DNA from: a virus
Reading direction: 5' to 3' (one strand)
IMG/VR virus record: IMGVR_UViG_3300033153_004821
Coordinates: 1 to 43,056 of that record
DNA length: 43,056 bases
In this document: piece after piece, positions 35,867 through 40,330 of the stretch
How positions within the stretch are numbered: position 1 is the stretch's first letter
Layout: each line of letters begins with the position of its first letter
Notes under the pieces: generated by a model
Database searches by the model: none
The model's input: the letters and a program-made list of their open reading frames with translations, nothing else
What the model was told of the DNA's origin: nothing
Translations under genes and position numbers: made by a program

Positions 35867-36523
35867 TCAAGCATCATAAAACCCAAATGTCTTCATCCAG
35901 TCTACAAGCGATTTTACTCTCCATTCGTAAATCTTAATTTGTTCTGGTGTGTAACTATGTTCTTCGGCACATCGCCTGATATTTTCTTCCCACCACTTTA
36001 CTGGTTTAATAATGCAGCCTGATGCAATATAGCCAAGTTTATAAAAACCAATAGAATAACATACCCCTGAGTACCATAACGGGTACTTACTTTCGCAGTC
36101 GTTGCCGAGCTTGCAGCAATCGCCGAGTTCGCAGTAGTCGCCGAGTTCGCAGTAGTCGCCGAGTTTGCAGTAGTCGCCGAGTTTGCAGCCGTTGCCGAGT
36201 TTGCAGCCGTTGCCGAGGTCGCAGTAGTTGCCGAGGCTGCAGTCGTAGCCGAGTTTGCAGCAATCGCCGAGGCTGCAGCCATTGCCGAGTTTGCAGTAGT
36301 TGCCGAGTTTGCAGCCGTTGCCGAGTTTGCAGCCGTTGCCGAGTTTGCAGCCGTTGCCGAGTTTGCAGTAGTTGCCGAGGTCGCAGCCGTCGCCGATTAA
36401 GACATCCCTTCCTATCCACACACACACAGTTCCACATGGGGCTGTATATTTATCCCTGTCTTGCGTCCACGTTTTACGGAGTTCTTCGAGGCTTTCAATT
36501 TTAATTCCACCTACAGTAATCAT
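35867..36523 (-). CDS. Cysteine-ladder hexapeptide-repeat (left-handed beta-helix) protein
   Basis: A 218-residue protein. Residues 43-144 are 17 consecutive hexapeptides of the form (L/I)GxxCx, such as LGNGCK, LGNYCK and LGDYCE, giving 19 cysteines in 102 residues. An aliphatic residue followed by glycine every six residues is the left-handed beta-helix signature, as in acyltransferases, but with an unbroken cysteine column and no visible catalytic histidine. The N-terminal 42 residues and a C-terminal helical domain (KWWEENIRRCAEEHSY and on) flank it. It could bind metal, ice, DNA (as a mimic) or a partner surface. Ribosome site AAAGGA. Function unknown. Confidence 0.85.
   Translation of the reverse strand: MITVGGIKIESLEELRKTWTQDRDKYTAPCGTVCVWIGRDVLIGDGCDLGNYCKLGNGCKLGNGCKLGNGCKLGNYCKLGNGCSLGDCCKLGYDCSLGNYCDLGNGCKLGNGCKLGDYCKLGDYCELGDYCELGDCCKLGNDCESKYPLWYSGVCYSIGFYKLGYIASGCIIKPVKWWEENIRRCAEEHSYTPEQIKIYEWRVKSLVDWMKTFGFYDA
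36092..36397 (-). repeat. 18-bp tandem repeat coding for hexapeptides
   Basis: Seventeen imperfect 18-bp units of the type TTGCCGAG reading on the plus strand as GCCGAGTTTGCAGCCGTT encode the cysteine-ladder helix. All three minus-strand frames lack stops across it. Units differ mainly at the codons for the third and fourth residues of each hexapeptide. Gain or loss of units would lengthen or shorten the helix without a frameshift. Confidence 0.9.
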
Positions 36524-36540
36524 GTTTCCATTCCTTTCTT

Positions 36541-36975
36541 TTATATTTTTTTTATTCCTATTTCAGTTCTTGGCTTATTTGAATAAACTTTCCTTGTTGT
36601 CCCTTCACAGACAAGAGAATCATCACGCCAAAATACATTCGTTAAAGCATCCATAACCAGCTTGCGAAGATTATCAATGTCGGGCTTTTTCGTGTGGTTT
36701 ATCGGAGACGAGTCTTTTAGTTTTCCTGCATTTTTACCTGTGCCATAATGTCCCTTTGGCCTCGGCATGTAAAAATATAGGTCAACTCTCAGTGGGCAAT
36801 CTAAAAGTTTTTCAGGTGCTTGCTCTTGCACAACTGCCATTAAATTTCGTTTTGCCTTTGCTGAATTTGGGTCATCATATATCTGTACGAACTTACCGGC
36901 ATTTCTTGCCCTTGGCCTACCTTGTGCTTTGGGCGAACCCAATATCACTATCTGGTAATCATAATTATTATCCAT
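36541..36975 (-). CDS. rusA: RusA-family Holliday junction resolvase
   Basis: A 144-residue RusA-like endonuclease. It has SPKAQGRPRARNAG near residue 13, a central DLYFYMPRPKGHYG, then the active-site aspartates in KKPDIDNLRKLVMDAL near residue 98 and FWRDDSLVC near residue 115. RusA enzymes cut Holliday junctions, resolving recombination or replication branches before packaging. It fits with the RecT and Rad50-like genes. The start lies inside the end of a small gene. Confidence 0.92.
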   Translation of the reverse strand: MDNNYDYQIVILGSPKAQGRPRARNAGKFVQIYDDPNSAKAKRNLMAVVQEQAPEKLLDCPLRVDLYFYMPRPKGHYGTGKNAGKLKDSSPINHTKKPDIDNLRKLVMDALTNVFWRDDSLVCEGTTRKVYSNKPRTEIGIKKI

Positions 36976-37108: not shown

Positions 37109-37881
37109 CGCTTATCCTCTCCGCCAGTTCCAACCCATCTGAACAAACTTAGTCTGCTGGCTATACGCTCATCAAAACTTGCTGCAAGATTTTGGCGTGA
37201 TTTATTCGTACTGATAAATGTCGGCTTGCACGCCTCTAACCTGCTATCAAGCAATACATAAAACGTTCGCAAACTAAAATCACTTTCGTTTTTGCCGATT
37301 GACGTGGTAGAACCAACGTCCTCGACAATCAAGTAATCACAGTCAATCAGCGGTCGGATCACATCAAGCTCAGTTTTTTTATTTCCCTGCTTGTAGGTGT
37401 CTCTGATTTGCAGACAAAGCATTTCGTAGGTAATTCGCTTTACGGACTTACGTGTCAAGATTAAATGCCGTGCCAACGCCGAAAGTGCATAACTCTTTCC
37501 CCTTCCGACTGGCCCGTAAAGCACAAGTCCGATTTTCAGATCATAACTAAATATGGCGACACGGAAAGCTGCACTTAAATTACGAAGATGAGCATTGGCG
37601 AAAAGCTTCGGGATAACTCTGCCTAAAGCTTGTCGCATCCGTGCGACTTTAGCCCTCCGTGATTGGCGTAACGACTGCTTTGCCTGATCAGCTTTTAATT
37701 TGTTCGCACAGACTGGACAACTTTCGGATGTAAACCATCTACCCGCAAGTTCTTTTGGCTTAATCTCAGCACCGCAAGCACAAACAGCTATTTCAGGATG
37801 TTGGGATAAGTTCCTCGTCCCAACGCTGCTCGTTAAGACTTGGCCGACTGTTTGTATTTCCTGTTCGTTTACTTTTTGCAT
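37093..37881 (-). CDS. DnaC-like helicase loader ATPase
   Basis: A 262-residue protein. A zinc-finger-like N-terminal part has VCACGAEIKP and SCPVCANK (about residues 35-60), and an AAA+ domain follows with Walker A LYGPVGRGKS near residue 122 and Walker B YLIVEDVG near residue 175, then sensor-like FISTNKSRQNL. It would load the host replicative helicase at the phage origin. The ATG at 37881 follows GGAG by 10 bases, overlapping the initiator gene by 89 bases; a later start would lose the cysteines. No phage helicase is seen, so the host helicase is probably used. Confidence 0.85.
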   Translation of the reverse strand: MQKVNEQEIQTVGQVLTSSVGTRNLSQHPEIAVCACGAEIKPKELAGRWFTSESCPVCANKLKADQAKQSLRQSRRAKVARMRQALGRVIPKLFANAHLRNLSAAFRVAIFSYDLKIGLVLYGPVGRGKSYALSALARHLILTRKSVKRITYEMLCLQIRDTYKQGNKKTELDVIRPLIDCDYLIVEDVGSTTSIGKNESDFSLRTFYVLLDSRLEACKPTFISTNKSRQNLAASFDERIASRLSLFRWVGTGGEDKRCTKV

Positions 37882-38629
37882 CCTTCTGCATCTCCAATCT
37901 ATCAAATTGCTTTCGTAGCTTGTTTGTTGACAAAATATTACTCTGCCAAAAATCGTCCTGTTGACACCACTTGATAACAGCTTCAATTCGTGTTGGGGTT
38001 CGATTATCAAGGCGTATCATCTTGTCAATATGACTTGACCACGTTTGCAAGTTTGGTTCTTTGAAATCTGGTTTGCTTTTTTTAATCTCATCAAGTAGCA
38101 ATGAAGCGAGTCGAAACTCATCTGAGTTTTGACAATATTTATTATCTGTAGTTGTATCTGTAGTTGTATCTGTAGTTGATGAGACGTTTTCGTTACGTGT
38201 ACGTAACGTGTTTGTATCCGTGTTCGTAACAGCTTCTTGCGTTGCTGGGGTTGCCTTATCTTGGTTTTCGGGGTAATAAGCAGGAAAACGCACATCTGGG
38301 TTAATATCTTTACGTAGGTGTTTCTTGCATTTTTTTACGTGAATATAAGTCTCTTTACCTACGCTATATAGCAAAATTAGCTGTGCTTTGACCAATTCTT
38401 GAACCCATTTTGCAATTTTTCTTTCAGAAACTTGTTTGTTTTTCATTCTTTCTGCAAAAAGTTTGCACATAATTAGTGTAGAATTGCCGTCAAAATTCGC
38501 TCCGTCATCACATTTAGCGATAAGTCTTGTGAACAAAGTTTCTGCTTCAAAGCTCACTGAATTAACCTTTTTGCTGTCTGGGTAATTGCATAAAAGCGGG
38601 TTCCATGGTTCACGTTTTTGTTTAGCCAT
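37793..38629 (-). CDS. Phage replication initiator-like protein
   Basis: A 278-residue protein. The N-terminal 110 residues look like a winged-helix DNA-binding domain (SFEAETLFTRLIAKCDDG, QVSERKIAKWVQEL, IHVKKCKKHLR). A Thr/Asp-rich low-complexity linker (about 130-165) is encoded by DNA repeats, and a C-terminal helical domain (about 170-245) has RIEAVIKWCQQDDFWQSNIL, as in DnaD-like or replisome-organiser proteins. Immediately before a DnaC-type loader this is the O-P arrangement of lambda. It likely binds the repeats in its own gene. Confidence 0.8.
   Translation of the reverse strand: MAKQKREPWNPLLCNYPDSKKVNSVSFEAETLFTRLIAKCDDGANFDGNSTLIMCKLFAERMKNKQVSERKIAKWVQELVKAQLILLYSVGKETYIHVKKCKKHLRKDINPDVRFPAYYPENQDKATPATQEAVTNTDTNTLRTRNENVSSTTDTTTDTTTDNKYCQNSDEFRLASLLLDEIKKSKPDFKEPNLQTWSSHIDKMIRLDNRTPTRIEAVIKWCQQDDFWQSNILSTNKLRKQFDRLEMQKDAKSKRTGNTNSRPSLNEQRWDEELIPTS
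38143..38178. repeat. Three 12-bp iterons inside the initiator gene, candidate origin
   Basis: TATCTGTAGTTG is repeated three times exactly, head to tail, in the linker of the initiator gene. Together with the palindrome 14 bp further on, this resembles lambda, whose origin lies in gene O. The repeat also encodes TDTTTDTTT, so protein-level repetition could be the cause, but the exact DNA identity favours a site. Confidence 0.6.
38192..38207. promoter_or_regulatory. Inverted repeat near the iterons
   Basis: GTTACGT-GT-ACGTAAC has perfect 7-bp arms and a 2-base centre. It lies just beyond the iterons within the initiator gene and is a plausible additional binding or opening element of the origin. 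Confidence 0.5.
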
Positions 38630-39099: not shown

Positions 39100-39594
39100 T
39101 CACATTAACCTGCTCGCCGTTCGGGAAGGAACTCGTTTTGTTATTTCAGGCCTTTTAGCCTCCAGTCTTTTTCTGTCCATTAGCAGCCAGTGTTCAGCCA
39201 CCCAAAGGACGTTATCAATATATTTAGAACACAAATACTTATCTTGCTTTGACAGTGTTATATTATTCCCGTCATCGTCAATTTTTGAACAGTGTTTTTT
39301 CAGCCATTCATGCGTATCTTCTTTTTCGTAAGGTCGCTCGAAGGCCATATCTCCGTGGCCCAGGGTGACCGTCCACCCGATGTTATTAAGCTCTTTGGTT
39401 ATCTCAAGAACCAAAAACCCCCAATAGTACCCAAGTTGCTGGTTTGATTTTGCTCCGTGCGGAGTTCGATGTCTCTCAATGCCTCGGTAACCGTCTGGTT
39501 TACCGTTAAGGTATGTAGCTCTTTGTGCGGGGTCGTCGTAATATATACGGGCGTTTCTGACCTCGTAACTAAATTCTGTGATTGATGTAGGCAC
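39100..39594 (-). CDS. NinB/Orf-like recombination-region protein
   Basis: A 164-residue protein. KSNQQLGYYWGFLVLEITKEL near residue 49 followed by EDTHEWLKKHCSK near residue 92 is a pattern seen in phage proteins of the NinB and related group found with RecT genes, some of which bind single-stranded DNA and help recombinases. The match is by pattern only. It overlaps the MBL-fold gene by 26 bases. Confidence 0.5.
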   Translation of the reverse strand: MPTSITEFSYEVRNARIYYDDPAQRATYLNGKPDGYRGIERHRTPHGAKSNQQLGYYWGFLVLEITKELNNIGWTVTLGHGDMAFERPYEKEDTHEWLKKHCSKIDDDGNNITLSKQDKYLCSKYIDNVLWVAEHWLLMDRKRLEAKRPEITKRVPSRTASRLM

Positions 39595-40330
39595 TTTCGA
39601 CTATCCTTGTCTCTATAAAAAATCGTTCTTCAAATTCCTTTTTGGCTTGTGCCTTGTCGATATTATCGCCGCTCATATGCAGCAGGTGTATTTCTCGACA
39701 TTTACTCAGATCAACAAACTGCTGCAAATATCTCATGGCCTCTTGCTTTTCCATATGACTTGTTAAAAGTCGTTTCGCTAATGTCTCATTTACTTTTGTC
39801 AATCCCTCTTCTTTAAGCTGGTCTTCATCGGTATATAGCCGGTGTTCGAGTACATCCCTATCGTATCCGCACTCAATAGCGATGAGGGTGAATGGATACT
39901 TAAAACGTTGCTTTATATGGCTTGTATCCGTGGCAAAGAAAAGAAACTCATTATCTGCCCTGATGACAAAACCCAAAGGCTCCGCTGCATCGTGATTTAT
40001 GCCAAAGCATAGGACATCAAAGTCTTTCAGGCGTATTAGTGTTTTGTCGCTGACAACATTTACCTTTCGGCCAGTAATACTAAGAGCATCAGCCGTCCCT
40101 TTGCTGGCATAAACATCAATACCAGCCCGCATGATCTCTTTAATTGCTTTGCTGTGGTCTTGGTGTTCGTGTGTTACTAAACAGCCTACAATACCGTTTA
40201 CGTTGTAATTCAGGGCCTTCTGTAGCTTAGACCAAGTAACACCGCACTCTATAAGTAGTCGTTTACCGCTGTTGGCCGTAACCTCATATAAATTACCACC
40301 CGAACCAGAATAATGTTGAACAAAAGTCAT
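39569..40330 (-). CDS. MBL-fold hydrolase, possible nuclease
   Basis: A 253-residue metallo-beta-lactamase-fold protein. THEHQDHSK near residue 53 is the HxHxDH metal motif; NHDAAEP (about residue 112), ATDTSHIK (about 133) and a late LLHMSGDN histidine complete the usual set. The type is that of YycJ/PhnP-like phosphodiesterases and nucleases. MBL-fold proteins are often found with RecT in phages and may supply the exonuclease. Here no other exonuclease is seen in the recombination module. Substrate not shown. Confidence 0.82.
   Translation of the reverse strand: MTFVQHYSGSGGNLYEVTANSGKRLLIECGVTWSKLQKALNYNVNGIVGCLVTHEHQDHSKAIKEIMRAGIDVYASKGTADALSITGRKVNVVSDKTLIRLKDFDVLCFGINHDAAEPLGFVIRADNEFLFFATDTSHIKQRFKYPFTLIAIECGYDRDVLEHRLYTDEDQLKEEGLTKVNETLAKRLLTSHMEKQEAMRYLQQFVDLSKCREIHLLHMSGDNIDKAQAKKEFEERFFIETRIVESAYINHRI

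Follow-up and report, generated by a model that had tools for sequence, protein, structure and literature searches.

Hexapeptide-repeat proteins that fold into a left-handed beta-helix (LbH; Pfam PF00132), such as LpxA, LpxD, GlmU and eIF2B-epsilon, follow the published motif [LIVMA]-X3-[ASCVTN]-X, of which residues i and i+4 point into the prism (PMC538250). With the phage protein described here, P0001, they have in common a six-residue period, Leu, Ile or Val at position i, Gly at i+1 and a small residue at i+4. Pentapeptide-repeat proteins, such as Qnr and AlbG, have a period of five residues, and the DNA mimics among them are strongly acidic. Among phage proteins, comparable systems include phrog_5353, a family of unknown function, as well as phiRM10 gp34 and BF766P1_00032 (phrog_7964), which like P0001 combine a repeat solenoid with a GC-motif C-terminal domain and unlike P0001 carry V(S/Y)G(N/D)A(R/W/Q) repeats with Ala in the column. 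In our searches of the literature, no publication on the family of P0001 came up.

Here, we present an analysis of P0001, which is encoded in a viral sequence of 43,056 nucleotides (IMG/VR record IMGVR_UViG_3300033153_004821; "the window" denotes this whole stretch of DNA). P0001 is a member of a large family of uncharacterised phage proteins built from repeats. It points to a large class of modular early proteins in phages, as yet unannotated and made up of caps, a length-variable rod and a conserved C-terminal domain, in which the domain has no Pfam family and the repeat chemistry varies between Cys, Val, Ala and Thr. Its natural variants could be used to ask how rod length and core residue matter, and its C-terminal domain deserves to be examined for targets among host or defence factors.

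The gene and its tandem array

The gene lies on the minus strand at 35867..36523, with the ATG at 36523, the stop codon at 35867-35869 and a translated product of 218 aa. Direct reading of the sequence locates a Shine-Dalgarno-like AAAGGA (36532..36537, minus strand) 8 nt upstream of the ATG. Residues 37-144 (36092..36415, minus strand) form eighteen hexads encoded by 18-bp tandem units, namely a single cysteine-free IGRDVL directly followed by 17 consecutive [LI]GxxCx hexads at residues 43-144. The hexad count confirms the 17 hexapeptides and the 19 cysteines within 102 residues that the original prediction had reported. Tandem Repeats Finder delimited the 18-bp array to 36101-36396 (16.4 copies, 84% matches, score 340), and a degenerate DNA pattern of five units gave 12 matches in the window and 0 in 100 dinucleotide shuffles. 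All 17 Cys codons of the hexads are TGC and the DNA identity between units is 0.77; the array has therefore been recently homogenised. A pure assembly artefact is unlikely, because the units differ from one another by substitutions.

The upstream neighbour is a RusA Holliday-junction resolvase gene (36541..36975, minus strand; Pfam PF05866, E=2e-31), which ends 17 nt before P0001, and the other neighbours in the window encode RecT, a DnaA/IstB-like ATPase and an MBL-fold protein. The label of early protein, given to P0001 from the beginning, thus agrees with its place in an early recombination region. Beside the relatives we found genes for YqaJ, dUTPase, Dam, a C5 methylase, PD-(D/E)XK, AAA and Gp157 proteins, chosen by eye from a longer list as an illustration of the context and not as a measure of it, and phiRM10 gp34 is likewise located in an early recombination region, near Rad52, NinB and NinG genes. 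These recombination and DNA-metabolism neighbours point to an early, intracellular accessory role.

Hexapeptide family and predicted fold

Against Pfam Hexapep (PF00132), P0001 scores 84.6 bits (E=2e-24; gathering cutoff 27), and gapless in-register local matches to solved LbH enzymes extend over 61-75 residues, with 61 residues for LpxA (1j2z) and 75 for LpxD (6ued and 3pmo). LGxxCx is an exact fit to the LbH motif, to which all 18 consecutive hexads conform, and the Cys column consequently sits where LbH proteins place small core residues (PMC538250). Both kinds of match back the hexapeptide-repeat fold that had been proposed from the letters. P0001 is unlike the LbH enzymes in its nearly invariant Cys at i+4, its 17 loop-free units and its lack of acyltransferase residues. 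The repeats contain 0 His, in line with the proposed absence of an acyltransferase active site, and every match to the NCBIfam enzyme-level models falls far below cutoff; for these two reasons, P0001 was rejected as a hexapeptide acyltransferase. The phage family phrog_5353 matches P0001 with E=7.4e-18, the best stretch (64-120 of 256) being confined to the repeats, and its match to a close relative in contig L006 spans 54-238, including the repeats plus the C-terminal part.

Structure prediction with AlphaFold2 (AF2) gave a mediocre full-length model from an alignment of six sequences (pLDDT 74.8), and a fold search with this model returned no match, its weak hits being mainly right-handed solenoids. 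A repeat-only model based on in-register relatives reached pLDDT 97.3 and pTM 0.87 and shows strand pairs at six-residue intervals. Foldseek of this model against the PDB found nothing at E<=0.001; the best weak hits were the SV2 luminal domain and Qnr-like right-handed solenoids (TM ~0.3), and LbH entries scored TM 0.13-0.16. In BFVD, a pentapeptide-repeat fragment from Orpheovirus ranked first (TM 0.73, rmsd 1.7), and the next hits were Mimivirus proteins, one of them eIF-2B gamma-like. Pentapeptide-repeat proteins such as Qnr and AlbG thus appear among the weak fold-search hits, but their period is five, while that of P0001 is six and is accompanied by no Pfam pentapeptide match.

For perfect repeats, AF2 is reported to produce beta-solenoids that are confident yet unrealistic (PMC11795689), and because of this unreliability on near-perfect repeats the handedness is based on sequence homology, which makes a left-handed solenoid the probable form. 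For the left-handed helix of the original prediction, this means that the hexad profiles speak in its favour, while the confident AF2 solenoid came without a solved left-handed match. In this regard, P0001 is also useful for testing how AlphaFold2 handles near-perfect beta repeats. Coil size was approached through charge autocorrelation, DNA lag identity and the unit counts modulo 2, 3 and 4, none of which gave a decisive result.

Variation across relatives

The closest relatives of P0001 are a protein in contig L001 and a tandem pair in L006, and it is in the C-terminal domain that conservation is concentrated (58% and 48% identity in the alignment), consistent with the importance that had been attached to this part of the protein. 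In these relatives the column is occupied by Val, with some Ile and others, in place of Cys, so that the Cys column is not conserved across all homologues, although it persists within the Cys-array branch. The two L006 paralogues (L006:2464-3931) are separated by one base and have Val/Ile-column arrays of unequal length. Matches to Pfam Hexapep extend to the Val-type relatives (E 4.8e-19) and to mixed Phe/Leu ones (E 2.3e-13). CCCH zinc-finger Pfam matches occurred in Phe-type relatives only and were dismissed as chance Cys spacing.

A scan of viral contigs with a five-unit Cys pattern gave 109 stretches. Once low-complexity frame artefacts had been set aside, real Cys arrays of 8-42 units were left in about 70 viral contigs. 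A full cysteine column, which the original prediction had regarded as unfamiliar, is therefore not rare. Pattern searches of genome contigs yielded mostly G+C-rich frame artefacts, and about seven hits look like real members. The typical Cys-array protein, representing most of the ~70, begins with TQEEFDALP..CPTGDYS and has (S)FGExC repeats. Ala-column arrays are present in Ruminococcus phage phiRM10 gp34 and Bacteroides phage BF766P1, and a Thr/Ala-column array in L286. A separate 15-bp pattern (LGxCx, six units) had matches in 42 viral contigs (loci L007-L048).

We examined 13 arrays that have diverged strongly (DNA identity between units 0.43-0.61). Of their 221 units, 187 have Cys at position 5, and the residues at the outward positions 3, 4 and 6 are close to random. 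As these loci had been found by the Cys pattern, the five units that accounted for detection were excluded, after which Cys still accounts for 122 of 156 units (78%), with Ser next at 19. Retention of Cys beyond the finder run therefore indicates purifying selection on Cys within that branch, and this retention, well beyond drift, suggests some specific advantage of Cys there. Taken together, Cys is selected within the Cys-array branch and exchangeable for Val, Ala or Thr across the family.

A more distant relative is protein ASD52775 of Flavobacterium columnare phage V156, found by a tblastn match to a related protein over 95% of its length; it has hexads and similar ends in common with the family and differs in its low identity (24%) and in its mixed Val/Cys/Ser/Ile repeats. 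This diverged hexapeptide homologue (L275:4001-4672) is present in many sequenced F. columnare phage isolates and would be a culturable model.

Proteins with both ends available contain between 5 and 41 units, and these numbers do not clearly favour any remainder modulo 2, 3 or 4. L144 and L149 carry 40 and 28 units, respectively, and are similar at the N-terminus and identical over a stretch that follows the stop codon; the matching flanks thus imply a change of length by whole 18-bp units, as had been anticipated for P0001. As read on the reverse strand, L144 and L149 have no C-terminal domain before the stop.

The N-terminal cap region of P0001 comprises residues 1-36 (36416..36523, minus strand), as delimited by alignment and by the model, where local pLDDT is ~51-75, and the aligned N-termini of L144 and L149 resemble it (MITIN..NTWKKEGNKYTSPNGTV). 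At the other end, residues 145-218 (35870..36091, minus strand) contain, according to the model and the alignment, a domain at ~158-212, for which AF2 predicts strands at 158-162, 165-168 and 171-174 and helices at 175-188 and 193-212 (pLDDT 81-92). G169-C170, a W and a Y are conserved in the alignment with relatives. Most Cys-array relatives share the C-terminal motif V/I-R-x-GCF-x-G-T/S-L-x-E-F, and domains of this GCF-motif type also end the phiRM10 and BF766P1 (Ala) and L286 (Thr/Ala) proteins. A comparison of the P0001 domain with the wider GC-motif family (phrog_20532/phrog_7964 type) gave an hhalign probability of 23% (E 0.0009) and a common pattern, GC-F/I-..-W/F, and this sequence-level likeness is suggestive of a link only. 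Profile searches of the PDB and Pfam with the C-terminal domain returned nothing significant.

Proposed role and alternative explanations

Our best guess is that P0001 acts as a cytoplasmic scaffold displaying its conserved C-terminal binding domain, and we consider the explanation as a whole, a cytoplasmic early hexapeptide-repeat solenoid scaffold with such a domain, to be reasonably probable. P0001 would be a cytoplasmic, early-expressed phage accessory protein forming a beta-solenoid, most likely of the left-handed LbH type, with an N-terminal cap and, at the other end, the small conserved strand-helix-helix domain. In each hexad, Leu/Ile at position i and Cys at i+4 would point inward, filling the core with reduced small residues, and Gly and the polar residues would point outward. 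The 18-bp units could expand, contract and homogenise freely, changing the length of the rod by whole units, and the solenoid would thus be a rigid scaffold or spacer of adjustable length. The C-terminal domain may then be the specific binding part, the target of which is probably a factor involved in DNA metabolism or defence, from either the host or the phage.

The fold itself could be different: instead of an LbH, it could be a right-handed hexad beta-solenoid akin to the pentapeptide-repeat (Qnr-like) helix but with a six-residue repeat. The weak hits of both AF2 models are mainly right-handed solenoids, the best BFVD hit is named a pentapeptide repeat protein, and the Phe-Cys arrays of relatives would probably overfill a triangular LbH core. 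However, the sequence profiles match LbH families, also for the Val-type and mixed Phe/Leu relatives, another BFVD hit is eIF-2B gamma-like, and the solenoids come from a method that over-predicts confident beta-solenoids for near-perfect repeats (PMC11795689), which leaves the right-handed form rather unlikely in our assessment. Similarity to pentapeptide-repeat gyrase regulators would also underlie an inhibitor that mimics DNA and thereby blocks a host DNA-binding protein, a function to which the rod shape and the location among DNA-metabolism genes would be suited. Compared with pentapeptide DNA mimics, P0001 has six-residue instead of five-residue periodicity and no strong negative charge, its repeats containing 11 K/R and 14 D/E (net -3 over 108 residues); the charge of relatives ranges from ~-23 to +10, and the composition implies no continuous acidic face. 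The net charge speaks against the DNA mimicry raised in the original prediction, which we regard as very improbable.

The density of cysteines and their retention in diverged arrays, where positions 3, 4 and 6 randomise, are what a functional cysteine ladder would have in its favour, with stacked thiols binding metal clusters or forming disulfides in a redox or metal-handling protein. Such a ladder is improbable, given that Val fills the column in the nearest relatives and Ala or Thr in other carriers of the C-terminal domain, that the position is buried by the LbH rule (PMC538250), and that the residue most often replacing Cys in diverged arrays is Ser, which agrees better with a role of size than with ligation. 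Equally little credence is given to the broader possibility that Cys arrays are a real chemical ladder for redox sensing or metal/electrophile capture, built as a hexad solenoid of new geometry and used by many phages as an early-infection device of adjustable length. The proposal of metals or disulfides for the Cys column consequently does not hold up well, as the inward i+4 site already allows Cys in ordinary LbH proteins (PMC538250). Selection on Cys within one branch, combined with Val, Ala and Thr versions elsewhere, favours a packing role of Cys over ligand chemistry, and a buried small-residue core is more likely than metal clusters, disulfides or DNA mimicry. A selfish or neutral expansion of slippage-prone DNA without selected function would agree with the recent homogenisation of the P0001 array, yet the open frame and hexad register are kept across many phages, inward positions are conserved where outward ones diverge and the flanking C-terminal domain is conserved, making this the most improbable of the alternatives.

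Further features were observed elsewhere in the window. The MBL-fold protein adjoining RecT (39569-40330) has a sub-threshold match to Pfam Apyc1 (anti-Pycsar; 26.7 bits vs cutoff 50). Two more tandem repeats, of 12 bp (three perfect copies, 38143-38178) and 11 bp (38184-38230), are located inside the ORF at 37793-38629, probably encoding a replication protein, and a 10-bp repeat, AAAAATAAGA, is present in 3.8 perfect copies near the left end (2040-2077).
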